Assembly (NCBI RefSeq): GCF_015330125.1
Contig: NZ_JADDXR010000002.1
Location: 1,922,001 to 1,986,000, forward strand
Length of the DNA stretch: 64,000 nucleotides
Direction: 5' to 3'
Origin: Zobellia nedashkovskayae
Lineage (GTDB): Bacteria > Bacteroidota > Bacteroidia > Flavobacteriales > Flavobacteriaceae
Part shown: positions 28,611 to 39,911 of the stretch, in pieces
How the letters are laid out: each line of letters opens with the position of its first letter
Numbering within the stretch: the stretch's first letter is position 1
Program-made: the position numbers and the translations under genes
The notes under the pieces: model-generated
The model's input: only the letters and a program-made list of their open reading frames with translations
Databases searched by the model: none
Told to the model about the DNA's origin: nothing

Positions 28611-29891
28611 TTAAGAAATCTTGTCCATCTTCCCCTTAATTTCCTTCAAACACAAATTACCTAAACTACCTTCGTGCGTATGGTGAATATCTCGTTTTGG
28701 GGTAAAAGTACCTTCTTGAATCTCTTGTCCCATTTTTTTATAGGCGTCTCTAAATGGTATTCCGTTTTGTACGAGTTCGTTCAAAGTGTCTACACTAAAC
28801 AGATAGTCATATTTTGGGTCTTCCAATATACCTTTGTTCACCTTCATTTTCTTTAGGCTGAATGTCAGAATCTCAATACAGGCTTTCATATCCTGAATAG
28901 CCGGAACAATGATTTCTTTCACCAATTGTAAGTCACGGTGGTAACCACTTGGGAGGTTGTTTATAACCAAAGTCAACTGATTGGGAATACTTTGTAGCTT
29001 GTTACATTTACCACGTACTAGTTCAAAAACATCTGGGTTTTTCTTGTGTGGCATAATGCTACTACCAGTAGTCAATTCATCTGGAAAGGACAAGAAATTG
29101 AAATTCTGACTCATGTACAAACAGATGTCCATGGCCAGTTTTGAAAGGGTAGCGGCAATATTTGCCATACCAAATGCGGTTGCTTTCTCTACTTTTCCAC
29201 GACCCATTTGAGCAGCGACTACGTTGTATTTCAAAGTCTCAAAACCCATTTCTTTAGTAGTGAAACTACGGTCAATTGGGAAAGAACTTCCGTAACCCGC
29301 AGCACTACCAAGCGGATTTTGGTCAGCAACTTTATAAGCAGCATCAACAAAATATAAATCGTCTATAAGACTTTCAGCATAGGCTGATAACCAGAGTCCG
29401 AAAGAAGATGGCATTGCAATTTGTAAGTGGGTATACCCAGGAAGTAATACGTCTTTATGCTTTTCGGAAAGCTCTAATAGCAAATCAAACAGTTCCTTGG
29501 TTCCTGATTTTATTTCAGAAAGCTCATGTTTTAGGTACAGGTGCATGGCAACAAGAACTTGATCGTTTCTTGATCTCGCCGTGTGTATTTTTTTCCCTGT
29601 ATCGCCTAGTTTTTCGGTAAGTACGTATTCTATTTTTGAGTGCATATCCTCAAAAGAATCCTCAATTACAAACTCGCCTTTTTCAATGGTTTCTGCAATG
29701 GCATCCAATTCTTTTACTAAAGCGTTCGTTTCATTGGCAGTCAATAATCCTATTTTACCTAGCATTTTGGCGTGTGCCTGTGAAGCATTAACGTCATATT
29801 TCGCCAAGTGTAAATCTAGTTCGCGGTCGTTTCCAACAGTAAAATGGTCTATTTTTTTATCGGTGCTAAAGCCTTTGTCCCAGAGTTTCAT
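28611..29891 (-). CDS. argH: Argininosuccinate lyase
   Basis: Last step of arginine synthesis: argininosuccinate to arginine and fumarate. 426 residues; family signatures TARSRNDQVLVAMHLYLK near 105 and the mobile catalytic loop GSSIMPHKKNPDVFELVRG near 275. Last gene of the arg/pro operon, 76 bp behind the argE-like gene, the largest but one gap in the operon; that gap is filled by an AGTA-rich degenerate repeat. Confidence 0.95.
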   Translation of the reverse strand: MKLWDKGFSTDKKIDHFTVGNDRELDLHLAKYDVNASQAHAKMLGKIGLLTANETNALVKELDAIAETIEKGEFVIEDSFEDMHSKIEYVLTEKLGDTGKKIHTARSRNDQVLVAMHLYLKHELSEIKSGTKELFDLLLELSEKHKDVLLPGYTHLQIAMPSSFGLWLSAYAESLIDDLYFVDAAYKVADQNPLGSAAGYGSSFPIDRSFTTKEMGFETLKYNVVAAQMGRGKVEKATAFGMANIAATLSKLAMDICLYMSQNFNFLSFPDELTTGSSIMPHKKNPDVFELVRGKCNKLQSIPNQLTLVINNLPSGYHRDLQLVKEIIVPAIQDMKACIEILTFSLKKMKVNKGILEDPKYDYLFSVDTLNELVQNGIPFRDAYKKMGQEIQEGTFTPKRDIHHTHEGSLGNLCLKEIKGKMDKIS

Positions 29892-29967: not shown

Positions 29968-31032
29968 CTATTTTAAAAATCCTTTTAATATTTTAATATA
30001 CAAATCAATACCGTCTTCAATTTCTTTGACGTAGATATATTCATCAGCAGAATGCGAACGAGTACTATCGCCAGGTCCTAATTTAAGGGATTGGCAAGTT
30101 AAGGCAGCCTGGTCAGAAAGTGTAGGAGAACCATAGGTTTTTCTTCCCAATGCAATGCCTGATTTTATAAGTGGATGGTCTTTAGATATTGCCGAAGAAT
30201 TTAATCGTAATGACCGTTCTTTTAATTCGCAAGGTGCTTCTTTCTTCAGTAACTCAGCTATTTCTGCATTGGTGTATTTATCGTTTACACGTACGTCAAT
30301 AACCAAATCTACCTGAGCAGGTACAACATTATGTTGTGAACCGCCGCTAATTTGGGTGACAGTCAACTTAACCGGACCTAAAACTTCCGATACTTTTGGG
30401 AACGTATAATTTTTAAACCACTCCAATACTTCAATGGTATTGTAAATGGAGTTATCATTGTTTGGATGTGCAGCGTGAGAAGGTGTACCTTTTATCACGG
30501 CATCAAAAACAATAAGTCCCTTTTCGGCAATAGCCAAATCCAAAAGAGTAGGTTCACCAACAATAGCAACATCAATTTTAGGAAGTATTTCCAATAATCC
30601 TCGTAAACTATTTGGACCGGCAGTTTCTTCTTCCATAGAGGCTACCATTAAAATATTATGATTGAGGTTTTCCTCAGCATAATAGTGGGTAAAAGTTGCA
30701 ATCAATGAAACCAATGGGCCGCCAGCATCATTACTACCTAAACCGTATAATTTTCCATCCTCAATATGCGGGTTGAAAGGGTCTCTAGTATAAGCTGAAT
30801 TCGGTTTTACCGTATCGTGATGCGAGTTTAAAAGCAGGGTAGGTTTGCTTTCGTCAAAATGTTTGTTCACCGCATAAACGTTGTTTATGTGGCGTTTGAA
30901 CGGAATATTAAAAGACGTAAACCAATTTTCAATGGCGTCCGCAGTTTTGTCTTCCTCAGATGAAAACGATTGAATCGAAATCAGTTCTTTTAATAAGTCT
31001 ATCGCTTTTTGCGTTAATGCTGCTTGTTCCAT
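29968..31032 (-). CDS. M20-family deacylase, probable N-acyl-ornithine/citrulline deacetylase (ArgE role)
   Basis: 354-residue zinc hydrolase of the M20/ArgE/DapE family. Metal ligands and catalytic residues are visible: LLNSHHDTV (His-x-Asp), LGSNDAGGP (bridging Asp) and MEEETAG (Glu pair). Because the operon encodes the transcarbamylase type that acts on acylated ornithine, this enzyme probably removes the acyl group from N-acylcitrulline before ArgG. It lies 2 bp behind argB. Dipeptidase or DapE activity is a less likely alternative given the context. Confidence 0.87.
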   Translation of the reverse strand: MEQAALTQKAIDLLKELISIQSFSSEEDKTADAIENWFTSFNIPFKRHINNVYAVNKHFDESKPTLLLNSHHDTVKPNSAYTRDPFNPHIEDGKLYGLGSNDAGGPLVSLIATFTHYYAEENLNHNILMVASMEEETAGPNSLRGLLEILPKIDVAIVGEPTLLDLAIAEKGLIVFDAVIKGTPSHAAHPNNDNSIYNTIEVLEWFKNYTFPKVSEVLGPVKLTVTQISGGSQHNVVPAQVDLVIDVRVNDKYTNAEIAELLKKEAPCELKERSLRLNSSAISKDHPLIKSGIALGRKTYGSPTLSDQAALTCQSLKLGPGDSTRSHSADEYIYVKEIEDGIDLYIKILKGFLK

Positions 31033-31034
31033 TT

Positions 31035-31808
31035 TTATAGGGTAAGAGTCGTGAATAAAGTAGATTTAGGGTCTAACATGCTAATATCTCCAATATGCAC
31101 CTGATGTACATTTTTTTGTAAAGCGTGAAAGCAATTTTCCATTTTAGGAAGCATACCGTCAGCAATGATTTTCTGTTCCAGCAAGGTTTGGTAGGATTTG
31201 GTATCAATATGTTTTACTACGGAATCATCGTCATTCACATTCATAAGAACACCTTTTCTTTCAAAACAATAGTAAAGTGTAGTTTCATAGTTTCCGCTCA
31301 TGCCAATAGCAAGTTCGGAAGCAATGGTATCTGCATTGGTGTTTAGTAATTGACCTTTCCCATCATGTGTCATGGCACAGAAAACAGGAGTAAGGCCAGC
31401 TTCTAAAAGCTTTGTAATAGTATTTGTGCTAACGCCATCAACATCTCCTGCGTAACCATAATCAATATCTTTTACGGGTCTTTTATGCGCTTGAATGGTA
31501 TCACCATCCGCGCCGCTTAATCCAATAGCATTACAGTTATGCGACTGCAATTCTGCTACAATATTTTTATTTACAAGTCCGGCGTAAACCATGGTAATCA
31601 ACCCTAAGCTATCCTCATCGGTAATACGGCGCCCATCAATAAGTTTAGATTTAATACCTAATCTGGTTCCCAATTTGGTGGCTAGTTTTCCTCCGCCATG
31701 GACCAATATTTTAAGGCCTTCCAATTCGGAAAATGCTTTTAGGAACTTAGAAAGTTCTTCTTTATTTTCGATGACGTTTCCGCCTATTTTTATAATGGAT
31801 AATTTCAT
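31035..31808 (-). CDS. argB: N-acetylglutamate (or N-acylglutamate) kinase
   Basis: Phosphorylates the gamma-carboxylate of N-acylglutamate. 257 residues with the amino-acid kinase pattern: IIKIGGNVIE, LVHGGGKLATKLG, RRITDEDSL and TNADTIASELAIG. The length is that of the short bacterial form without a regulatory N-terminal helix, so arginine feedback on this enzyme is not obvious. Spaced 2 bp from both neighbours in a tight operon. Confidence 0.93.
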   Translation of the reverse strand: MKLSIIKIGGNVIENKEELSKFLKAFSELEGLKILVHGGGKLATKLGTRLGIKSKLIDGRRITDEDSLGLITMVYAGLVNKNIVAELQSHNCNAIGLSGADGDTIQAHKRPVKDIDYGYAGDVDGVSTNTITKLLEAGLTPVFCAMTHDGKGQLLNTNADTIASELAIGMSGNYETTLYYCFERKGVLMNVNDDDSVVKHIDTKSYQTLLEQKIIADGMLPKMENCFHALQKNVHQVHIGDISMLDPKSTLFTTLTL

Positions 31809-31810
31809 GC

Positions 31811-32746
31811 CTACTGTTCCAGGATTTTTTTCAATACAATCTGCGCCGCATAGGTTCGGTTATTTGCCTGTTCTATAACAAGCGATTGGTCACCATCTAA
31901 AACAGCATCTGCAACAACCATATTTCTGCGCACGGGAAGACAGTGCATGAATTTAGCGTTACCCACTTTTTCTGGGGTCATCGTCCAATTTTTATCTTGG
32001 TTCAATACTTTTCCATAGTCGGAATAGCTACTCCAGTTTTTTACGTAAATAAAATCTGCATTTTCACAAGCCTTTTTCTGGTCGTATTCAATAGTGGTGC
32101 TTTTCGTAATTTCAGGATTAAGTTCGTATCCTTCAGGATGTGTAATAACAAAATCGGCATCTTGTAAATGCATCATCTCCACAAAAGAATTGGCAACTGC
32201 ATGCGGTAATGCTTTTGGGTGTGGTGCCCAAGAAAGCACCACTTTAGGTCTCGCTTTTGTATTTTGTTCGGCCAGAGTAATGGCGTCGGCCAAGGCCTGT
32301 AATGGGTGACCTACCGAGCTTTCCATATTTACTGTGGGTACGCTTGCGTATTTTTTAAAACCGTTTAAAACTTTCTCCGCTTCATCTTCTTCTTTATTCT
32401 GTAATCCAGCGAAAGCTCTAATAGCAACAATATCGCAATACTGGGAAATAACCTGTGCGGCTTCCTTTATGTGTTCAGAAGTACCTTGGTCCATAACAGT
32501 ACCGTCGGCATATTCTAAAGCCCAACCTTCACTTCCAAAGTTCATAACAATAACGTCCAATCCAAGGTTCATAGCAGCTTTTTGAGTGCTTAAACGCGTA
32601 CGAAGACTGTTATTGAAGAACAGCAAACCAATAGTTTTATCCGAACCTAGGTTTTTATGTTTTCTAGGGTCTTCTTTTAAGTCTCGGGCTTCTTCCACCC
32701 AATTGTCCAATGAATCTATGTCTTTTAAGGAAAGGTAATGTTTCAT
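31811..32746 (-). CDS. argF': N-succinyl/N-acetyl-ornithine carbamoyltransferase (ArgF')
   Basis: Transfers carbamoyl from carbamoyl phosphate to an N-acylated ornithine. The 311 residues have the phosphate-binding motif in FFNNSLRTRLSTQKA (ordinary OTCases have STRT-R), plus WAPHPKALPHAV and HCLPVRRN in the C-terminal half, all typical of the AOTC/SOTC branch. The residue that sets succinyl or acetyl preference (Pro90 in the Bacteroides fragilis enzyme, Glu92 in the Xanthomonas enzyme, as I recall) is Ser90 here, in DQGTSEHIKEA. That suggests succinyl-ornithine, but this is inference from published mutational logic, not a test. Confidence 0.9.
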   Translation of the reverse strand: MKHYLSLKDIDSLDNWVEEARDLKEDPRKHKNLGSDKTIGLLFFNNSLRTRLSTQKAAMNLGLDVIVMNFGSEGWALEYADGTVMDQGTSEHIKEAAQVISQYCDIVAIRAFAGLQNKEEDEAEKVLNGFKKYASVPTVNMESSVGHPLQALADAITLAEQNTKARPKVVLSWAPHPKALPHAVANSFVEMMHLQDADFVITHPEGYELNPEITKSTTIEYDQKKACENADFIYVKNWSSYSDYGKVLNQDKNWTMTPEKVGNAKFMHCLPVRRNMVVADAVLDGDQSLVIEQANNRTYAAQIVLKKILEQ

Positions 32747-32800: not shown

Positions 32801-33589
32801 TCAATGGTCTTCTAAAAAGTGACCGTCTTTTGTTTTTATTTTGGTATGTTTTCCCGAACCGGCAAAAGCATCTGTAATGAAGCTGTCGTTCAAGCCGTTT
32901 ACAATCCAGGTTTCAATACCGGCTTCTTGGGCAATGGTTGCAGCTTCAACTTTGGATTGCATACCACCAGTACCGTGCGATGATTTGCCCGAGCTAACTT
33001 CTTGTTGTAAACTAGAGACGCCTAGTACTTCGGGAATGGTCTCTGGTTGCCCGTTGTCTATTGAAATTTTGGTATATATGCCATTTGTGTTGGTGGCAAT
33101 CATTAAAAGGTCTACTTTAAGTAATGCCGCCGTCAATGCCGCCAACTTATCGTTATCACCAAATTGAATCTCATCTGCAGCCACCGTATCGTTCTCGTTA
33201 ATAATCGGTATGAAATTATTTCCGACTAAAATATCGATGGTATTTTTAATATTGGCTTTGGATTTTGGGTTCTCAAAATCTGAGTACGATAAAAGACACT
33301 GTGCTGAAAAAAGGCCAAGTTCTCTAAAGCTTTCTTGAAACATGCGCATTAAATGCGGTTGTCCAATAGCAGCTAAGGCTTGCTTCACGTTAATCTCTTC
33401 TCCGTTATGCTCTAGTTTAACAAATTGTTTTGCTGCCGCTATGGCTCCAGAGCTTACGATGACAAACTCATAGTCGTCTTTGAGCACCGCAATTTGCCTA
33501 CCTATATCCTCTATCTTTCCCCGGGAAATCTGATTCGTTTCCTTGGTTAAGGTGTTTGAGCCTATTTTTAATAAAATCCTTTTTTTCAT
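32801..33589 (-). CDS. proB: Glutamate 5-kinase without PUA domain
   Basis: First step of proline synthesis: glutamate to gamma-glutamyl phosphate. 262 residues covering only the amino-acid kinase domain (RILLKIGSNTLT, FVIVSSGAIAAAK, NENDTVAADEIQFGDNDKL, GTGGMQSKVEAA). The C-terminal PUA domain of the E. coli-type enzyme (about 367 residues) is absent, a known shorter form. Proline feedback still may act on the kinase domain. It is followed by proA after 45 bp... transcription runs from proA into proB on the minus strand, so proB is the downstream partner. Confidence 0.92.
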   Translation of the reverse strand: MKKRILLKIGSNTLTKETNQISRGKIEDIGRQIAVLKDDYEFVIVSSGAIAAAKQFVKLEHNGEEINVKQALAAIGQPHLMRMFQESFRELGLFSAQCLLSYSDFENPKSKANIKNTIDILVGNNFIPIINENDTVAADEIQFGDNDKLAALTAALLKVDLLMIATNTNGIYTKISIDNGQPETIPEVLGVSSLQQEVSSGKSSHGTGGMQSKVEAATIAQEAGIETWIVNGLNDSFITDAFAGSGKHTKIKTKDGHFLEDH

Positions 33590-33634: not shown

Positions 33635-34834
33635 TTACCCTCTTGTTTGCCCGTTTCCTTTTACATACCACTTATTGGTTACCAAATGCTGAAGTCCGAT
33701 AGGGCCTCTTTGGTGCAATTTATCTGTGCTGATGGCAAGTTCACCACCTAAACCAAATTGACCTCCATCTGTAAAGCGAGTGGAAGCATTGTGGTAAACT
33801 GCTGCAGTATCTACATTGTTCATAAAGTACTCGGCCTTTTCATTGTTTGCAGTAATAATAGCTGCTGAATGGCCACCACCGTAGGTGTTTATTTTTGATA
33901 TGGCATCTTCTAAACTTGAGCTTTGGCCAATTACTATTTTGTAATCTAAAAACTCTTCATACCAAACATTGTCATCTTCTATGTCTTTAGTTCCTTCCAT
34001 TCCGGCTATGGCGTCATCGGCTAGAATTTCAACATTGCTCTTCTGTAATTCTTGAATTAAATGCTGAAGAAACTGTTGTTTACGGGGTAAATCCGAAGAA
34101 ATTAAAACTTTATCTACCGCATTACAGGCAGATATTTTAGTTGTTTTACCATTAATGATGATATCTATGGCCATTTCCAAATCGGCTTCTTCACCTACAT
34201 AAACGAAATTGTTTCCACGGCCACTTATAATTACTGGGCATGTAGCATGTTGTTTTACAAAAGCAATCAACCTTTCACCGCCTCTAGGTACAATAAGGTC
34301 TACTTTTTGGGTAGGTTTTTCAAGAAAAGCCTGTGTTTCCGTTCGGTTGAACTGTAGGTAGGTAACCCAATCAATTTCGGCTTCGTTGGCTTCAAGGGCC
34401 TTGTGCCATAAATCGACTAAAAACAAATTACTGTTCAGCGATTCTTTTCCGCCTTTTAATAGTATTTTATTTCCCGATTTAAAAGCAATTCCAGCAGCCT
34501 CAATAGTAACATCGGGCCTAGATTCATAAATAATCAGAATTGTTCCGAAAGGAGCAGTTTTATTACTCACCTGCATACCATTGTCGTGCTCAAAACTAAA
34601 ACGCTCAACACCTAATGGGTCTTCTTGTGCCGCAAGTTGTTGCAGGCTCAAAATCATACCATCTATTTTTCCTTGGTCAACTTTAAGACGATCACGCATA
34701 GCGATATCATCACCTAAATAATTGTCCATATCTATTTTGTTGGCCTCTAGAATAGCAGTCCGTTCTTTTTGCAACAGTTGCGCCATGTCTAAAAGTACAG
34801 CGTTACGTTTTTTTATGTCCAATAGTAAGCTCAT
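33635..34834 (-). CDS. proA: Gamma-glutamyl phosphate reductase
   Basis: NADPH-dependent reduction of gamma-glutamyl phosphate to glutamate semialdehyde. 399 residues of the aldehyde dehydrogenase superfamily: FGTILIIYESRPDVTIEAAG, SGNKILLKGGKES, and the catalytic Cys in KTTKISACNAVDKVLI (Cys near residue 236). C-terminal RFTDGGQFGLGGELAIST is characteristic of ProA. The start codon overlaps the argD stop by one base (TAATG), so the pro and arg genes are translationally linked. Confidence 0.94.
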   Translation of the reverse strand: MSLLLDIKKRNAVLLDMAQLLQKERTAILEANKIDMDNYLGDDIAMRDRLKVDQGKIDGMILSLQQLAAQEDPLGVERFSFEHDNGMQVSNKTAPFGTILIIYESRPDVTIEAAGIAFKSGNKILLKGGKESLNSNLFLVDLWHKALEANEAEIDWVTYLQFNRTETQAFLEKPTQKVDLIVPRGGERLIAFVKQHATCPVIISGRGNNFVYVGEEADLEMAIDIIINGKTTKISACNAVDKVLISSDLPRKQQFLQHLIQELQKSNVEILADDAIAGMEGTKDIEDDNVWYEEFLDYKIVIGQSSSLEDAISKINTYGGGHSAAIITANNEKAEYFMNNVDTAAVYHNASTRFTDGGQFGLGGELAISTDKLHQRGPIGLQHLVTNKWYVKGNGQTRG

Positions 34835-35982
34835 TACAATTCTGCTTTTAAGGCGGTGAAAAATGTATCTAAATAGGCTTCGGTAATATTTAAAGCAGGA
34901 AGAACCCGCAATACATACTTATCCTTTGCGCCTCCGGTAAATAGTTTTTGATTGTGAATCAATCGTTTTCTTAAATCGGCTATCTCAAAATCAAATTCAA
35001 GACCTAACATTAGTCCTCTACCTTTTACTTTTTTTATTTGTGGTATTTCTGCGGCTAACGCCCTGAAATATCCTTCTAAATGCGCTGCGTTTTCAATGAG
35101 TTTTTCATCTTCCAATACTTCTAGAACAGCTAAAGTAGCCACGGAAGCCAAATGATTTCCTCCAAAAGTAGTGCCTAATAATCCGTAGGAAGCTTTGATG
35201 TCTTCATGGATTAAAATGCCACCCACAGGGAAGCCATTGCCCATGCCTTTGGCAACCGAAATAATATCTGGTTGTATGTTGTGATGTTGAAAAGCAAAGA
35301 ATTTACCGCTTCTACCAAAACCACATTGTACTTCATCTGCAATAAGTAAAGCTTCGTTGGCTTTAGTTAATGCTGCAATTTTTTGAAAAAACTCAGTAGT
35401 TGGCTCGTCCAAACCACCTACACCTTGTATAGTTTCTATAATAACCGCGCAAACATCGCCTTTTTCTATTTCAGACTCAAATGCCTGTAAGTCATTGAAA
35501 GGTAAAAAAGTCACCTTTTGCTGTAAATTAATAGGCGCGTTTATCTTTGGATTGTCCGTTGCGGCAACCGCAGCAGAAGTACGACCGTGAAAGCCGTTGG
35601 TAAATGCTATAACCCTAGATTTACCGGTATGGAAAGAAGCTAGTTTAAGCGCATTCTCATTCGCTTCCGCTCCTGAATTACACAAAAATAAATTGTAATC
35701 TTCGCAATCTGAAAGCTGACCTAATTTTGTAGCCAGTTCCTCCTGCAATGGGTTTTTTACAGAGTTACTGTAAAAACCTATTTTATTCAACTGGTCGGTC
35801 AGACGTTTTACGTAATGTGGGTGCGAATGGCCAATAGAGATTACAGCGTGTCCTCCGTAGAAATCTAAATAATCTATTCCTTTGTCATCGGTTACTACAA
35901 TTCCCTTTGCCGAGACTGGGGTTACATCGTATAATGGGTAAACATCAAATAAATTCATAACTTTTGTTGTTGTGCTGATCAT
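34834..35982 (-). CDS. argD: Acetylornithine (acylornithine) aminotransferase
   Basis: PLP-dependent transamination giving N-acylornithine from the semialdehyde. 382 residues of class III aminotransferases: DFYGGHAVISIGHSHP, CNSGAEANENALKLA, the PLP-contacting LIADEVQCGFGRSG, and the lysine in SVAKGMGNGFPVG. The N-terminal MNLFDVYPLYD at 35958 looks like the common family start, so the true start may be 8 codons later than the ATG at 35982. Overlaps proA by one base. Confidence 0.93.
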   Translation of the reverse strand: MISTTTKVMNLFDVYPLYDVTPVSAKGIVVTDDKGIDYLDFYGGHAVISIGHSHPHYVKRLTDQLNKIGFYSNSVKNPLQEELATKLGQLSDCEDYNLFLCNSGAEANENALKLASFHTGKSRVIAFTNGFHGRTSAAVAATDNPKINAPINLQQKVTFLPFNDLQAFESEIEKGDVCAVIIETIQGVGGLDEPTTEFFQKIAALTKANEALLIADEVQCGFGRSGKFFAFQHHNIQPDIISVAKGMGNGFPVGGILIHEDIKASYGLLGTTFGGNHLASVATLAVLEVLEDEKLIENAAHLEGYFRALAAEIPQIKKVKGRGLMLGLEFDFEIADLRKRLIHNQKLFTGGAKDKYVLRVLPALNITEAYLDTFFTALKAEL

Positions 35983-36012: not shown

Positions 36013-36813
36013 TTACAACTGACCCTCTTTAATTCTACTGATTTTTTCGTAGGAGGCTACAATTCCCTGAATTAGGGAAGAACTAAGTCCTTGATGTTCC
36101 ATTTCGTTCAGACCTTGAATAGTACAGCCTTTTGGGGTTGTTACCTTATCAATCTCTGCTTCTGGATGGCTACCGGATTCAATTAATAAGCTAGCAGCAC
36201 CACTACAGGTGTGCATGGCTAATTCCTGTGCTTCTTTAGCATCAAAACCTAACTGAATAGCACCTTGGGTGGTAGCGCGTATTAAACGCATCCAAAAAGC
36301 GATGCCACTGGCACATATAACCGTTGCAGCTTGCATCTGCCCTTCGGGTATTTCCATAGAATGACCCATGCGATTGAAAATAGCCTTTGCCAAATCAATT
36401 TTCTTTTTACCTTTTTCATTACTACAGATACAGGTCATAGATTGACCAACTGAAATAGCAGTGTTGGGCATACTTCTTATAATATTATAGTCCGCGCCCA
36501 GAATCGCTTCCATTTTGGCTATACTGAACCCTGTAATGGTAGAAATTACCACATGGTTTTCAGTAAGCAAATCTTTAATGCTTTCTAAAATGTTTTCTAG
36601 TTGACTAGGTTGCACGGCTAGAATAATAATATCAGAATTTTTAACGGCCTCTCTGTTATCTGAGGTGGTGGTAACATTACCATACTTTTCATACTCCGCT
36701 ATTTCAGAAGTATTTCTTTTCGTAAGGTACATGGTTGTGGCACCGTTAGAATTCAGAATTCCTTTTGCAATGGAAAGTCCTAAGTTACCAGCACCTATAA
36801 TGGCTATTTTCAT
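36013..36813 (-). CDS. proC: Pyrroline-5-carboxylate reductase
   Basis: Last step of proline synthesis. About 266 residues: N-terminal NAD(P) fold MKIAIIGAGNLGLSIAKG and the C-terminal family signature (KVTTPKGCTIQGLNEMEHQG). I place the start at the ATG at 36813; the frame extends two codons further to a TTG at 36819, but the Rossmann strand begins right at the ATG. It lies between argC and argD, completing proB-proA-proC inside the arginine operon. Confidence 0.92.
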   Translation of the reverse strand: MKIAIIGAGNLGLSIAKGILNSNGATTMYLTKRNTSEIAEYEKYGNVTTTSDNREAVKNSDIIILAVQPSQLENILESIKDLLTENHVVISTITGFSIAKMEAILGADYNIIRSMPNTAISVGQSMTCICSNEKGKKKIDLAKAIFNRMGHSMEIPEGQMQAATVICASGIAFWMRLIRATTQGAIQLGFDAKEAQELAMHTCSGAASLLIESGSHPEAEIDKVTTPKGCTIQGLNEMEHQGLSSSLIQGIVASYEKISRIKEGQL

Positions 36814-36885
36814 TTTCAAAATTTTGGTTGTTTCCGTTTTAAGTCTAATGGAATCTTATTGCGGAAATAGTTTTCTTGTTAATTG

Positions 36886-37860
36886 CTAAAAAACGCCGGC
36901 TTTAAGGTTAAGGCCTGTGCCTTCTTTAAAGCCGAAAATAAGGTTCATATTCTGAACCGCCTGTCCTGATGCACCTTTGAGCAAATTATCTATGGCCGAG
37001 GTGATAAGCAACGTGTTTTCATGCTTATGCAAATGAATATGGCACTGATTGGTATTCACAATTTGTTTTAGGTGGATAGGCTCCTCAGCTACTTGTGTGA
37101 ATAGCGCATCCGCATAAAACTCCTTGTATAAAGCAATAGCTTCTTCTAAAGTACCGTCATACTCGGTGTAAGCTGTAGCTAGAATACCGCGGGTAAAGTT
37201 TCCGCGGGTTGGAAGAAAGAACAACTCACCTGAATCTGATTGCAACGATTTTAGACTTTCGTTTATTTCGCCTAAATGTTGATGGGTGAACGGTTTGTAC
37301 CAACTAACGTTATTGTTTCTCCAGCTAAAATGCGAAGTAGCGGAAGGACTAACTCCTGCACCAGTACTACCGGTAACCGCATTGATATGAACGGTATGTC
37401 CCAACTTGTTCGCTTTGGCTAAAGGTAAAAGTGCTAATTGAATAGCTGTTGCAAAACAACCAGGATTGGCAATATATTTAGCCTTCTTTATCTCTTCTTT
37501 TTTAAGTTCAGGAAGGCCGTAAACAAATTTCCTTCCTTCAAAAACAGCATCGGCCTGCAACCTGAAATCGTTGCTGAGGTCAATTATTTTCGTGTTTTCA
37601 GAGAATGAGTTTTCCTGTAGGAATTTAGAGGAATTACCATGACCTAGACATAAGAATACTACGTCTACATCAGGATTGATTTTTCCTGTAAATTCCATTT
37701 CAGTGGTTCCCAATAAATCAGCATGCGCCGTTGTAACTTTCTTGCCAGCTCTGGTTGTACTGAAAACAAAATCTATTTCAGCCTCAGGGTGATGCAAAAG
37801 AATTCTAATGAGTTCTCCGCCCGTATAACCAGAACCGCCAATAATTCCTGCTTTAATCAT
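36886..37860 (-). CDS. argC: N-acetyl(acyl)-gamma-glutamyl-phosphate reductase
   Basis: NADPH-dependent reduction of N-acylglutamyl phosphate to the semialdehyde. 324 residues: IIGGSGYTGGELIRILLHHP at the N-terminus and the active-site motif IANPGCFATAIQLALLPL with the catalytic Cys. It overlaps the end of argG by 8 bp (start within ATGATTAA), which indicates coupled translation. Confidence 0.95.
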   Translation of the reverse strand: MIKAGIIGGSGYTGGELIRILLHHPEAEIDFVFSTTRAGKKVTTAHADLLGTTEMEFTGKINPDVDVVFLCLGHGNSSKFLQENSFSENTKIIDLSNDFRLQADAVFEGRKFVYGLPELKKEEIKKAKYIANPGCFATAIQLALLPLAKANKLGHTVHINAVTGSTGAGVSPSATSHFSWRNNNVSWYKPFTHQHLGEINESLKSLQSDSGELFFLPTRGNFTRGILATAYTEYDGTLEEAIALYKEFYADALFTQVAEEPIHLKQIVNTNQCHIHLHKHENTLLITSAIDNLLKGASGQAVQNMNLIFGFKEGTGLNLKAGVF

Positions 37861-39043
37861 TGTTCTGATTTACGTGGTTATATATTTTTCCAGAATTGGA
37901 AAGTATTTTTATAAAACCTTTTGCATCATCAGCAGACCATCCTTTGTTCACTTCACCGTAGCTACCAAAAGCATCGGTCATTAAATCATGTTTAGACGAA
38001 ATTCCGTTTAATCTAAACTGAAAAGGGTAAAGACTTAGGAAAACATCACCAGAAACATTCTTTTGCGTGTCTGTTAAGAAGGCTTCAATATTTCTCATTA
38101 CAGCGTCTAGGTAGTTGCCTTCATGTAATAACATTCCATAGAAGTTACCTTGTTGTTCTTTTTGGAATTGTTGCCATTTGGTTAAGGTATGCTTTTCTAG
38201 TAAGTGGTGTGCTTTTATGATAATTAATGCAGCGGCAGCTTCAAAACCAACTCTACCTTTTGTACCAATAATGGTATCACCAACATGAATATCTCTACCA
38301 ATAGCATATTTAGAAGCCATAGTTTCTAACTTTTCTATATTGGCAACAGGAGTATCTTTAATACCATCAATAGCAACCAATTCACCTTTTTCAAAGGTTA
38401 GCTTTACATCCGTAGGCTCTTTTTCTTGTAATTGACTTGGGTATGCACTGTCTGGCAGTGCATTTTGAGAAGTCAGTGTTTCTTCACCACCAACAGATGT
38501 TCCCCAAAGACCTCTGTTTATAGAATATTTGGCTTTTTCCCAAGGATAATCTACACCATTCTCTTTTAAGTAAGCAATTTCTGTTTCTCTAGATAATTTG
38601 TTGTCTCTAATAGGAGTAATGATTTCAATCTCTGGAGCGATGATTTGAAAAATCATATCGAATCTCACTTGGTCGTTACCAGCTCCTGTACTACCATGAG
38701 CGATATAATCAGCACCAATTTTCTTGGCATAAGTGACTATCTCAATAGCTTGTACAATTCGTTCTGCACTAACAGATAGGGGATATGTATTGTTTTTTAG
38801 AACATTACCAAAGATGAGATATTTTACAACTTTATCGTAAAAAATCTGAACGGCATCAATAGAAGTGTACGAACTGGCACCCAATTGTATTGCTTTCTCT
38901 TTTATAGAAGCAATCTCTTCTTTGGAGAAACCGCCAGTATTTACGCTTACTGCATGTACATCAAAACCTTGTTCTTGTGATAGGTATTTAGCGCAGTAGG
39001 AAGTGTCTAATCCGCCGCTGTATGCTAAAACTAATTTTTTCAT
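37853..39043 (-). CDS. argG: Argininosuccinate synthase
   Basis: ATP-dependent condensation of citrulline and aspartate. 396 residues beginning LVLAYSGGLDTSYCAKYL (PP-loop) with the conserved AHGSTGAGNDQVRFD stretch. The N-terminal half is the canonical ATP-pyrophosphatase fold. Second gene of the operon, 53 bp behind the GNAT gene. Confidence 0.95.
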   Translation of the reverse strand: MKKLVLAYSGGLDTSYCAKYLSQEQGFDVHAVSVNTGGFSKEEIASIKEKAIQLGASSYTSIDAVQIFYDKVVKYLIFGNVLKNNTYPLSVSAERIVQAIEIVTYAKKIGADYIAHGSTGAGNDQVRFDMIFQIIAPEIEIITPIRDNKLSRETEIAYLKENGVDYPWEKAKYSINRGLWGTSVGGEETLTSQNALPDSAYPSQLQEKEPTDVKLTFEKGELVAIDGIKDTPVANIEKLETMASKYAIGRDIHVGDTIIGTKGRVGFEAAAALIIIKAHHLLEKHTLTKWQQFQKEQQGNFYGMLLHEGNYLDAVMRNIEAFLTDTQKNVSGDVFLSLYPFQFRLNGISSKHDLMTDAFGSYGEVNKGWSADDAKGFIKILSNSGKIYNHVNQNND

Positions 39044-39096: not shown

Positions 39097-39729
39097 TTAT
39101 TCGTTTGTTTTCTTTTTAAGAAAAAGAGACTCTTTAATACTTTTGAGTCTTTTGAAAGCTTTACTGTTGATATGTTCTTTTTCAACTTTTTCAACTTTTT
39201 TCTCCTTTGCATCTGAGTCGTAAAGCATACCTGTACAAAGGCACATTTTGCGTTCGGTACGCGTAAGAATATCAAAGTTTTTGCATGTCTGACAACCTTT
39301 CCAAAATTCTGGGTCATCAGTTAGTTCAGAAAATGTAACTGGTTTGTAACCAAGTTCATAATTCATTTTCATTACGGCCAAGCCAGTAGTAATACCAAAT
39401 ATTTTGGCATCAGGAAATTTCTCTCGCGAAAGCTCGAAGATTCTTTTTTTAATTTTTTTGGCCAATCCTTGATTTCTATAATCAGGGTGGACTATGAGGC
39501 CGGAATTCGCTACGAATTTCTCATGCCCCCAGACTTCTATATAACAGAAGCCGGCAAATTTGTCGCCATCTAAAGCAATAACAGCATTACCATTTTCCAA
39601 ACGTTTTAGAATATATTCTGGTGTACGTTTAGCTATGCCGGTACCTCTTACCTTAGCAGATTCCGTAATGGTATCACTAATGATTTGAGCGTATTTGAGA
39701 TGAGACTTGTTAGCAATAATTATATTCAT
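39097..39729 (-). CDS. GNAT-family N-acyltransferase, candidate first enzyme of arginine synthesis
   Basis: About 210 residues with a GNAT acetyl-CoA site: the beta4 strand GFCYIEVW, motif A NSGLIVHPDYRNQGLAKKIKKRIF and a downstream FGITTGLAVMKMN. A C-terminal Cys cluster, CxxC-x13-CxC (GCQTCKNFDILTRTERKMCLC), follows, then a Lys-rich tail. No argA, argJ or argA-argB fusion is visible, yet argB needs an N-acylglutamate, so this first gene of the operon is the natural candidate for glutamate N-acylation. The function is inferred. The ATG at 39729 is preferred to the TTG at 39735. Confidence 0.75.
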   Translation of the reverse strand: MNIIIANKSHLKYAQIISDTITESAKVRGTGIAKRTPEYILKRLENGNAVIALDGDKFAGFCYIEVWGHEKFVANSGLIVHPDYRNQGLAKKIKKRIFELSREKFPDAKIFGITTGLAVMKMNYELGYKPVTFSELTDDPEFWKGCQTCKNFDILTRTERKMCLCTGMLYDSDAKEKKVEKVEKEHINSKAFKRLKSIKESLFLKKKTNE

Positions 39730-39750
39730 TGCCAAAAGGGTTTAAATTGT

Positions 39751-39900
39751 AAAAAAAAATGAATTGTTGGTCGTTTAGCGGAAATGGACTCACCTATTCC
39801 CATGAAATATATACACCCTTACGGGCGACGGCGAGAAGCCGGGCGAACAGGAGCAAGATTGCTCAAAGTGTTAAATATGTGTCTTTGTCCTTTCATGGAA
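39751..39900 (-). promoter_or_regulatory. Structured leader (putative attenuator) of the arg/pro operon
   Basis: Reading the minus strand, CCATGAAA (39898-39891) can pair perfectly with TTTCATGG (39807-39800), closing a domain that covers the peptide start. Inside are hairpins GAGC/GCTC (39851-39864), CGGC/GCCG (39829-39841, over the Arg codons) and CCC/GGG (39816-39825, over the stop). A run of nine T follows at 39759-39751, preceded by a weak GAAT/ATTC plus GGT/ACC stem. The T-run fits a terminator but its stem is weak, so whether control is by termination or by translation is open. It is not a riboswitch class I recognise. Confidence 0.5.
39819..39896 (-). CDS. Putative arginine leader peptide (25 residues) of the arg/pro operon
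   Basis: Too short for ordinary gene finding. The frame from the ATG at 39896 to TAA at 39819 encodes a peptide ending LAPVRPASRRRP, with Arg at positions 5, 18, 22, 23 and 24 (codons AGA, CGC, CGC, CGT, CGC). Five Arg in 25 residues, three of them adjacent near the end and directly before arginine biosynthesis genes, is the layout of classical ribosome-mediated attenuators (trp, his, leu). An exact -7 box (39904-39911) would start transcription about 2 nt before the ATG, so translation could be leaderless. The stop codon lies inside a small hairpin. No prior description of this peptide was available to me. Confidence 0.6.
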   Translation of the reverse strand: MKGQRHIFNTLSNLAPVRPASRRRP

Positions 39901-39903
39901 AGC

Positions 39904-39911
39904 CAAATGTA
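39904..39911 (-). promoter_or_regulatory. -7 promoter box of the arg/pro operon
   Basis: Minus-strand TACATTTG matches TAnnTTTG exactly. It lies 48-bp-scale distance from the stop of the upstream GT-C gene and about 5 nt from the start of the leader stem. No exact TTG -33 element was found at the expected distance. Confidence 0.5.

Follow-up and report, generated by a model that had tools for sequence, protein, structure and literature searches.

A conserved arginine leader peptide and a two-hairpin RNA element upstream of the arginine/proline operon in Zobellia nedashkovskayae and related Flavobacteriaceae

Results

The operon and the region upstream of it

The window (the whole stretch of DNA analysed, 64,000 nt) carries on its minus strand an operon of the order GNAT-argG-argC-proC-argD-proA-proB-argF'-argB-argE-argH, which lies downstream of a short leader ORF. 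The features, given in the direction of transcription, are the following.

39904..39911, minus strand: -7 promoter box TACATTTG, an exact fit to the TAnnTTTG type (sequence reading)
39819..39896, minus strand: leader ORF encoding MKGQRHIFNTLSNLAPVRPASRRRP, stop codon included (sequence reading and comparison of lineage-1 loci, see below)
39814..39827, minus strand: hairpin H1, CGCCC-GUAA-GGGUG (structural scan, 63-locus alignment and folding)
39802..39813, minus strand: U-rich spacer between H1 and H2, about 52% U (126 loci)
39780..39801, minus strand: hairpin H2, stem GGGAAU/AUUUCC, bulged A, GG/CC and loop UGAGU (covariation)
39730..39779, minus strand: G-poor stretch from H2 to GNAT, no consensus helix in the aligned part (86 loci)
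39097..39729, minus strand: GNAT acetyltransferase, first gene of the operon, 210 aa from the conserved ATG (PF00583/PF13508, matched from the TTG start)
37853..39043, minus strand: argG (PF00764, PF20979)
36886..37860, minus strand: argC (PF22698, PF01118), named from its domains and position
36013..36819, minus strand: proC (TIGR00112, above cut-off)
34834..35982, minus strand: argD-like transaminase (TIGR00707 best, below cut-off)
33635..34834, minus strand: proA (NF001221, above cut-off)
32801..33589, minus strand: proB (TIGR01027, above cut-off)
31811..32746, minus strand: argF'-type N-acyl-ornithine carbamoyltransferase (NF003384 best, 283.8 against a cut-off of 288)
31035..31808, minus strand: argB (TIGR00761, above cut-off)
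29968..31032, minus strand: argE/dapE-type deacylase (TIGR01910 best, below cut-off)
28611..29891, minus strand: argH (TIGR00838, above cut-off)

The ORF caller starts the GNAT gene at a TTG (39735), 6 nt before the conserved ATG (39729), the latter being probably the true start. No NCBIfam family at 1e-10 matched the GNAT protein of the window, which may serve the operon as its N-acetylglutamate synthase. In family f16, whose genomes measure about 600 kb, open frames of 589-631 aa contain the GNAT match, and GNAT is perhaps fused in these reduced genomes to another protein, conceivably ArgG. A profile search for the repressor ArgR (PF02863) found no match in any of 60 relatives, the window's own genome included; as a control, PF02863 was positive in 8 of 14 named genomes, one of them a Bacteroides.

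The leader ORF is 78 nt long (39896-39819, minus strand) and its 25 codons, five of which encode Arg, read ATG AAA GGA CAA AGA CAC ATA TTT AAC ACT TTG AGC AAT CTT GCT CCT GTT CGC CCG GCT TCT CGC CGT CGC CCG, followed by TAA. The Arg run CGC CGT CGC occupies 39833-39825 (minus strand), and its last codon is also part of hairpin H1. The initial annotation had described a 25-codon frame with five Arg codons and the run CGC CGT CGC just before the stop, and the sequence bears this out, with CCG standing between the run and TAA; its exact -7 box does match TAnnTTTG, 7 nt from the leader ATG, and its distance of 90 bp to the first operon gene measures 89 nt from the leader stop to the GNAT ATG at 39729.

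In the neighbouring genes (19 ORFs, 7237 codons) the share of Arg is 2.9%, a background on which at least five Arg in 25 codons have P = 0.0007. The window contains 414 ATG-to-stop frames with 20-40 codons (237 and 177 on the two strands, nested starts being counted apart), and the leader alone among them has RRR within its last seven codons. A chance ORF was rejected on these statistics together with the frame conservation and pN/pS values given below; it is the conservation across relatives, weightier than the window statistics, that excludes a chance origin.

Conservation of the leader peptide

Relatives of GNAT were assembled in two sets, the first drawn from 60 genomes, 34 of which had a match and 30 loci of which were kept, the second consisting of the best 80 of 441 named records. 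The nearest named record (L031) is Zobellia uliginosa C3R17, with a GNAT match that is 100% identical. Among these best 80 of the 441 named loci, a frame ending Arg-Pro-stop lies 77-95 nt before the GNAT match in 80 of 80 and the H2 loop follows it in 80 of 80, while argG follows GNAT in all 79 loci of sufficient length, the remaining one ending too early.

Lineage 1 consists of Zobellia, Maribacter, Arenibacter, Muricauda/Allomuricauda and others. A -7 box, defined by a TAnnTTTG-type pattern that was composed after viewing the loci, is matched in 87 of the 90 distinct lineage-1 loci, and the lineage-1 statistics refer to these 87 (L015, L094 and L129, where the box did not match, were dropped). 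Reading on from the box, the first ATG encountered is in the frame of the peptide in 84 of the 87, and in L039, L042 and L107 the in-frame ATG is the second one, 7-8 nt behind the box; in 75 of the 87 the first ATG stands 7 or 8 nt from the box.

According to the initial annotation, homologous upstream regions should keep an Arg-rich peptide with synonymous codon change, and loss of both the frame and the Arg run would speak against a leader. No lineage-1 homologue lacked both: over the 72 nt that precede the last Arg codon the peptide frame is open in 87 of 87 loci, against 15 and 45 loci for the other two frames, and Arg occupies codons -4, -3 and -2 in 83, 83 and 87 of the 87. Codon -4 is CGT in 47 loci and CGC in 36; because the two alternate at a position outside H1, Arg has been kept there while the codon changed. 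Differences at codon positions 1, 2 and 3 number 574, 405 and 827 in 164 equal-length pairs, and pN/pS, calculated on these pairs, which are non-independent, is 0.51 in the leader frame; the shifted frames, treated identically, give 0.89 and 1.42 (0.35 against 0.92 and 1.77 from single-change codons only). The Arg codons before the last three are CGT (105), CGC (75), AGA (12), AGG (5), CGG (1) and CGA (1), unlike the minus-strand genes of the window, in which AGA is the commonest Arg codon (76/210). The ORF thus stands as a real arginine leader peptide ahead of the arginine/proline operon, its Arg codons conserved and its frame under selection.

All 87 lineage-1 loci have Pro at codon -1 with the stop directly behind it, TAA and TAG both being used. 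TnaC, in which release at the stop codon is blocked with tryptophan, is likewise a short peptide with an Arg-Pro-stop end, and the fungal arginine attenuator peptide, also short, responds to arginine as its signal. A nascent-peptide arrest of the same kind, with the finished peptide ending in RRRP and free arginine jointly blocking release at the stop, would explain why Pro and stop do not vary. The Pro codon and the stop, however, lie together with the last Arg codon inside hairpin H1, which also accounts for the two, and the remainder of the peptide is poorly conserved.

The leader differs from TnaC and the fungal peptide in its variable body and in a stop that is not conserved in lineage 2 (31 family loci grouped by eye, eight of them from one genus). 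The RRP frame is open over 81 nt in 29 of the 31 loci, as against 5 and 4 for the other frames, L144, with its anchor misplaced, being scored as a miss. A start codon is found 28-29 codons before the last Arg in 24 of 31 (15 TTG, 4 GTG and 5 ATG). The stop is not placed after RRP in seven of the 31 (L013, L022, L026, L122, L125, L150 and L153), and H1 is foldable in all seven (-5.9 to -11.0 kcal/mol). A further Arg-rich ORF of 20-24 codons, exemplified by MIIMKNKIRPSSPARMLRRRCAF, MNSKKNKIRTFSPGLRLRNRRR and MNLTKNRNREIQPTRSTLRERRR, is present upstream in 27 of 31 loci (L013, L014, L016-L022, L024, L026, L118, L120, L122, L123, L125, L134, L136, L140-L145, L148, L150 and L153) and missing from L023, L025, L119 and L121; most of these ORFs have, as judged by eye, a -7-like box ahead of them, and three of the 27 start with GTG. 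L124 and L151 were placed in neither lineage: the former keeps FRRP-stop, the latter has RLP-stop at H1, the Arg codon by the stop being lost, with the upstream leader present. We read lineage 2, from these sequences, as carrying two tandem Arg leaders, of which lineage 1 would have kept one. Tandem Arg-rich leaders, the first without RRP-stop, point to the reading of codons, and together with the shifted stops they make nascent-peptide arrest unlikely beside a control in which the position of the translating ribosome is what counts.

Arg-rich frames occur in other families as well. The two loci of family f2 (L028 and L030), which have no H1-H2, contain frames ending YRRRPVRV-stop and LRRRRPVRR-stop, each followed by a hairpin with loop UACGU, the stem of which shows compensating changes between the two loci. 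In family f15 (L027), MKQVNIYTPSERPVLTIGIGRFSPLDRFRREPNRQ comes after TATCTTTG.

Hairpins H1 and H2

The alignment of H1-H2 (A1) contains 63 loci that were picked via the H2-loop pattern, so that the near-invariance of the consensus loop AGGUGNGYCC in it is partly built in; the exceptions within A1 are L024 (UGGUG) and L025 (GCCC). H2 begins 12 nt past H1 at the locus and about 10-15 nt past it across the alignment. In H2 all five outer-stem pairs as well as the pair below the bulge show changes on both sides. The named structure pairs in 96.4% of the cells of the 63-locus alignment, and its both-sided changes number 29, compared with 6.2 in shuffles; none of 500 shuffles reached the whole-structure scores, and slid versions all scored lower. 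A covariance model, itself built on A1, brought 41 loci, in 40 of which the loop is AGGUGNGUCC (39 matched by the pattern, plus L152 read off the strand); the loop of L124 is AGAUGUGUUC, with a compensating change in the loop-closing pair.

H1 alone has 5 bp and -7.2 kcal/mol. Its letters are almost invariant in the 63-locus alignment, and covariation therefore says little on it; the best support for H1 is its foldability where the letters or the stop position change, as in the seven lineage-2 loci named above. In one of them, L013, the letters of H1 are altered, the fold is still possible and the H2 loop is unchanged. A switch in which the 5' arm of H1 (CGCC) pairs with the H2 loop (GGUG) was dropped on the same ground, H1 changing in L013 while the loop stays constant.

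Besides H1 and H2, RNAalifold applied to 87 loci returned a small hairpin within the peptide region, with no conserved competing or alternative helix in this consensus. The stretch between H2 and GNAT contains 4.4% G and 17% C (86 loci). Single-sequence folding was discarded as evidence, the leader folding no better than shuffles (z -0.41). Neither the leader region nor H1-H2 matched an Rfam family, T-box and catalogued riboswitches included; the lone RNA-family hit, a human lncRNA region at E 4.6, was dismissed as meaningless. An exact-match search of the own genome returned two occurrences of TAGGTGNGTCCA, the arg leader being one.

The 40 of 41 covariance-model loci with an identical H2 loop on a covarying stem, the almost invariant H1 letters and the lack of an Rfam family would also suit a riboswitch or a protein-binding RNA, in which H1-H2 itself senses arginine or a protein and the frame ending RRP-stop is a by-product of the letters of H1. 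This leaves unaccounted for the open frame, the fixed distance between ATG and box, the synonymous change and the Arg at codon -4, which is outside H1; nor does it explain the upstream Arg-rich ORFs of lineage 2 and the f2 frames that occur without H1-H2, and an aptamer of two short hairpins would be unusually small. We regard such a sensor as quite unlikely, and control through the ribosome on the Arg codons as the better account of the same features.

Terminator test and the histidine leader of the same genome

The arg leader shares with the ribosome-mediated attenuators of his, trp and leu operons a short ORF with a run of product codons directly upstream of the operon, and the initial annotation had invoked the switch of these systems. 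The own genome provides a direct comparison: upstream of hisG (L187) it contains the leader MKNRTTHHHFHIHAQAR, with a terminator of -16.0 kcal/mol, which is a textbook attenuator. All 12 hisG loci compared, of which nine belong to the window's genus, have a His-rich leader and a terminator that scores between -14.2 and -18.7 kcal/mol. The same test on the arg leaders found no conserved intrinsic terminator, the median best score over 86 loci being 0.

A classical attenuator of the trp/his type could still be present if H1, with its 5 bp, -7.2 kcal/mol and U-rich tail, were a hidden intrinsic terminator. The structural scan flags H1 as terminator-like, the spacer behind it has about 52% U, and of the 86 arg leaders 18 contain terminator-like folds below -8 kcal/mol, the six best involving H1 or its surroundings, as compared with 7 of 86 after one mononucleotide shuffle per locus. 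The median of 0 beside the uniformly strong hisG terminators, and a consensus that holds no competing antiterminator helix, render this very improbable. The trp/his/leu-type switch is thus not supported as stated for the arg leader, which has no conserved terminator and, in the consensus, no conserved pair of mutually exclusive helices; H1-H2 stands in place of the strong intrinsic terminator of the his leader.

Distribution of H1-H2

Under strict filters, the H1-H2 covariance model hit 13 of 296 genomes in a sample of the phylum, all of them from the window's family and with one hit each. Among the 29 family genomes covered by both searches, H1-H2 is present in 18 of 18 with GNAT and in 0 of 11 without it. 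Weak second hits (E 0.02-0.09) in G033, G353, G359 and G369 were taken as chance, as were weak sole hits in other families in G044 (E 0.004), G040 (0.06) and G056 (0.1); those of G044 and G040 sit on contigs other than that of GNAT. Genus g49 of the same family counts against a family-wide rule linking H1-H2 to GNAT, since ten of its genomes have GNAT and H1-H2 occurs in 0 of the 17 listed; six g49 loci were read and contained no Arg leader.

Discussion

Comparison of the loci shows that the peptide with its Arg codons, the promoter spacing, H1-H2 and the link to the operon are all conserved, and the marks of selection are borne by the peptide frame and by the stem of H2. We propose that an arginine leader peptide controls the arginine/proline operon through the position of the ribosome, a reading to which we give a probability of roughly 75%. 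The start site, the stalling at low Arg-tRNA, the raised expression and the output step of the following scheme are what we infer from these features.

Transcription would probably start a few nt before the leader ATG, so that the ribosome would load on an almost leaderless message. The ribosome would then translate the 25 leader codons. When Arg-tRNA is scarce it would pause on RRR and mask the 5' arm of H1 with its leading edge, and with H1 thereby held open the operon would be read. With ample arginine the ribosome would reach the stop inside H1 and leave, and H1 would fold ahead of H2. The closed H1 would be the off state and the H1 held open by the ribosome the on state. That low charged tRNA-Arg would raise expression of the operon, as the initial annotation had suggested, is the most likely reading of the locus. 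Candidates for the off state are a weak terminator or pause at H1, Rho acting on the G-poor stretch, and faster decay of the message; we favour an output based on Rho, pausing or decay over an intrinsic terminator. One point counts against the scheme: H1 lies too near the Arg codons for a standard two-state switch, as a ribosome at the stop codon should block H1 too.

H2 follows the first RRR codon at a distance of 32 nt and the stop codon at one of 20 nt. With the known dimensions of the ribosome, footprint arithmetic indicates that H2 is probably left free in both ribosome states, and its loop therefore probably meets something in trans. The AGGUG of the H2 loop is complementary to CACCU at the 3' end of the 16S rRNA of the own genome; as the position after AGGUG varies, this pairing is only an idea. 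More speculatively, H1-H2 may be a new output module for ribosome-position sensing, with the H2 loop read in trans, for example by the 3' end of the 16S rRNA or by a factor for termination or antitermination. Many Flavobacteriaceae would in this way regulate arginine synthesis without ArgR or an intrinsic terminator, via a single Arg leader or two in tandem on messages that are nearly leaderless. We put this forward as a tentative and rather doubtful extension of the reading above.

The nearest published mechanism, by analogy, is that of the Salmonella speF leader, as described in PMC6386406, in which consecutive Arg codons of orf34 sense arginine and Rho-dependent termination follows, the pair of Arg codons acting jointly with Rho and with a hairpin beyond the stop codon. 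The two leaders, compared by description, have in common an Arg-codon ORF, a hairpin downstream of its stop codon and the lack of a recognised intrinsic terminator (a conserved one in the case of the arg leader); they differ in that speF belongs to gamma-proteobacterial ornithine decarboxylase, not to arginine synthesis (PMC6386406). A leader peptide also precedes carA, a gene of the arginine/pyrimidine pathway, in P. aeruginosa, where, by the description in PMC4997734, the suggested attenuation is tied to pyrimidines.

Within Flavobacteriaceae, leader-peptide attenuation has been proposed for amino-acid operons of F. psychrophilum, and the section of that report on conserved 5' elements names pheA and hisG among others, arg being absent from it (PMC9723704). 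Our locus has in common with those 5' regions the family, the proposed attenuation by a leader peptide and the lack of an Rfam match (PMC9723704). The initial annotation knew of no described arginine leader in Flavobacteriaceae, and none turned up in searches of the open-licence literature, supplements aside; leader peptides as a mode of control in the family had, however, already been proposed in F. psychrophilum (PMC9723704).

For a large group of Flavobacteriaceae that yielded no arginine repressor, the leader is a likely answer to the question of how arginine synthesis is controlled. H1-H2 is a defined and conserved RNA element absent from Rfam, and the coexistence in one genome of two leader types, a terminator-type one (his) and one with another output (arg), allows a clean comparison. 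Because its ATG lies 7-8 nt behind the promoter box, the leader is also a natural system for the study of nearly leaderless initiation, in a phylum whose ribosomes are not known to rely on Shine-Dalgarno pairing.

Some loci without the Arg leader have a feature of their own. In family f5 (19 loci) a single frame with at least three Arg was seen, an unrelated-looking TTG frame in L172. Inverted repeats of the type AGATA...TATCT are found upstream of GNAT where the Arg leader is missing, namely in 13 of the 17 f5 loci tested (of 19) and in 2 of 6 g49 loci, as against 0 of 127 loci with H1-H2 (L154, L155, L157, L158, L160, L161, L163-L169, L171 and L174 carry them). These repeats are perhaps the operator of some repressor.
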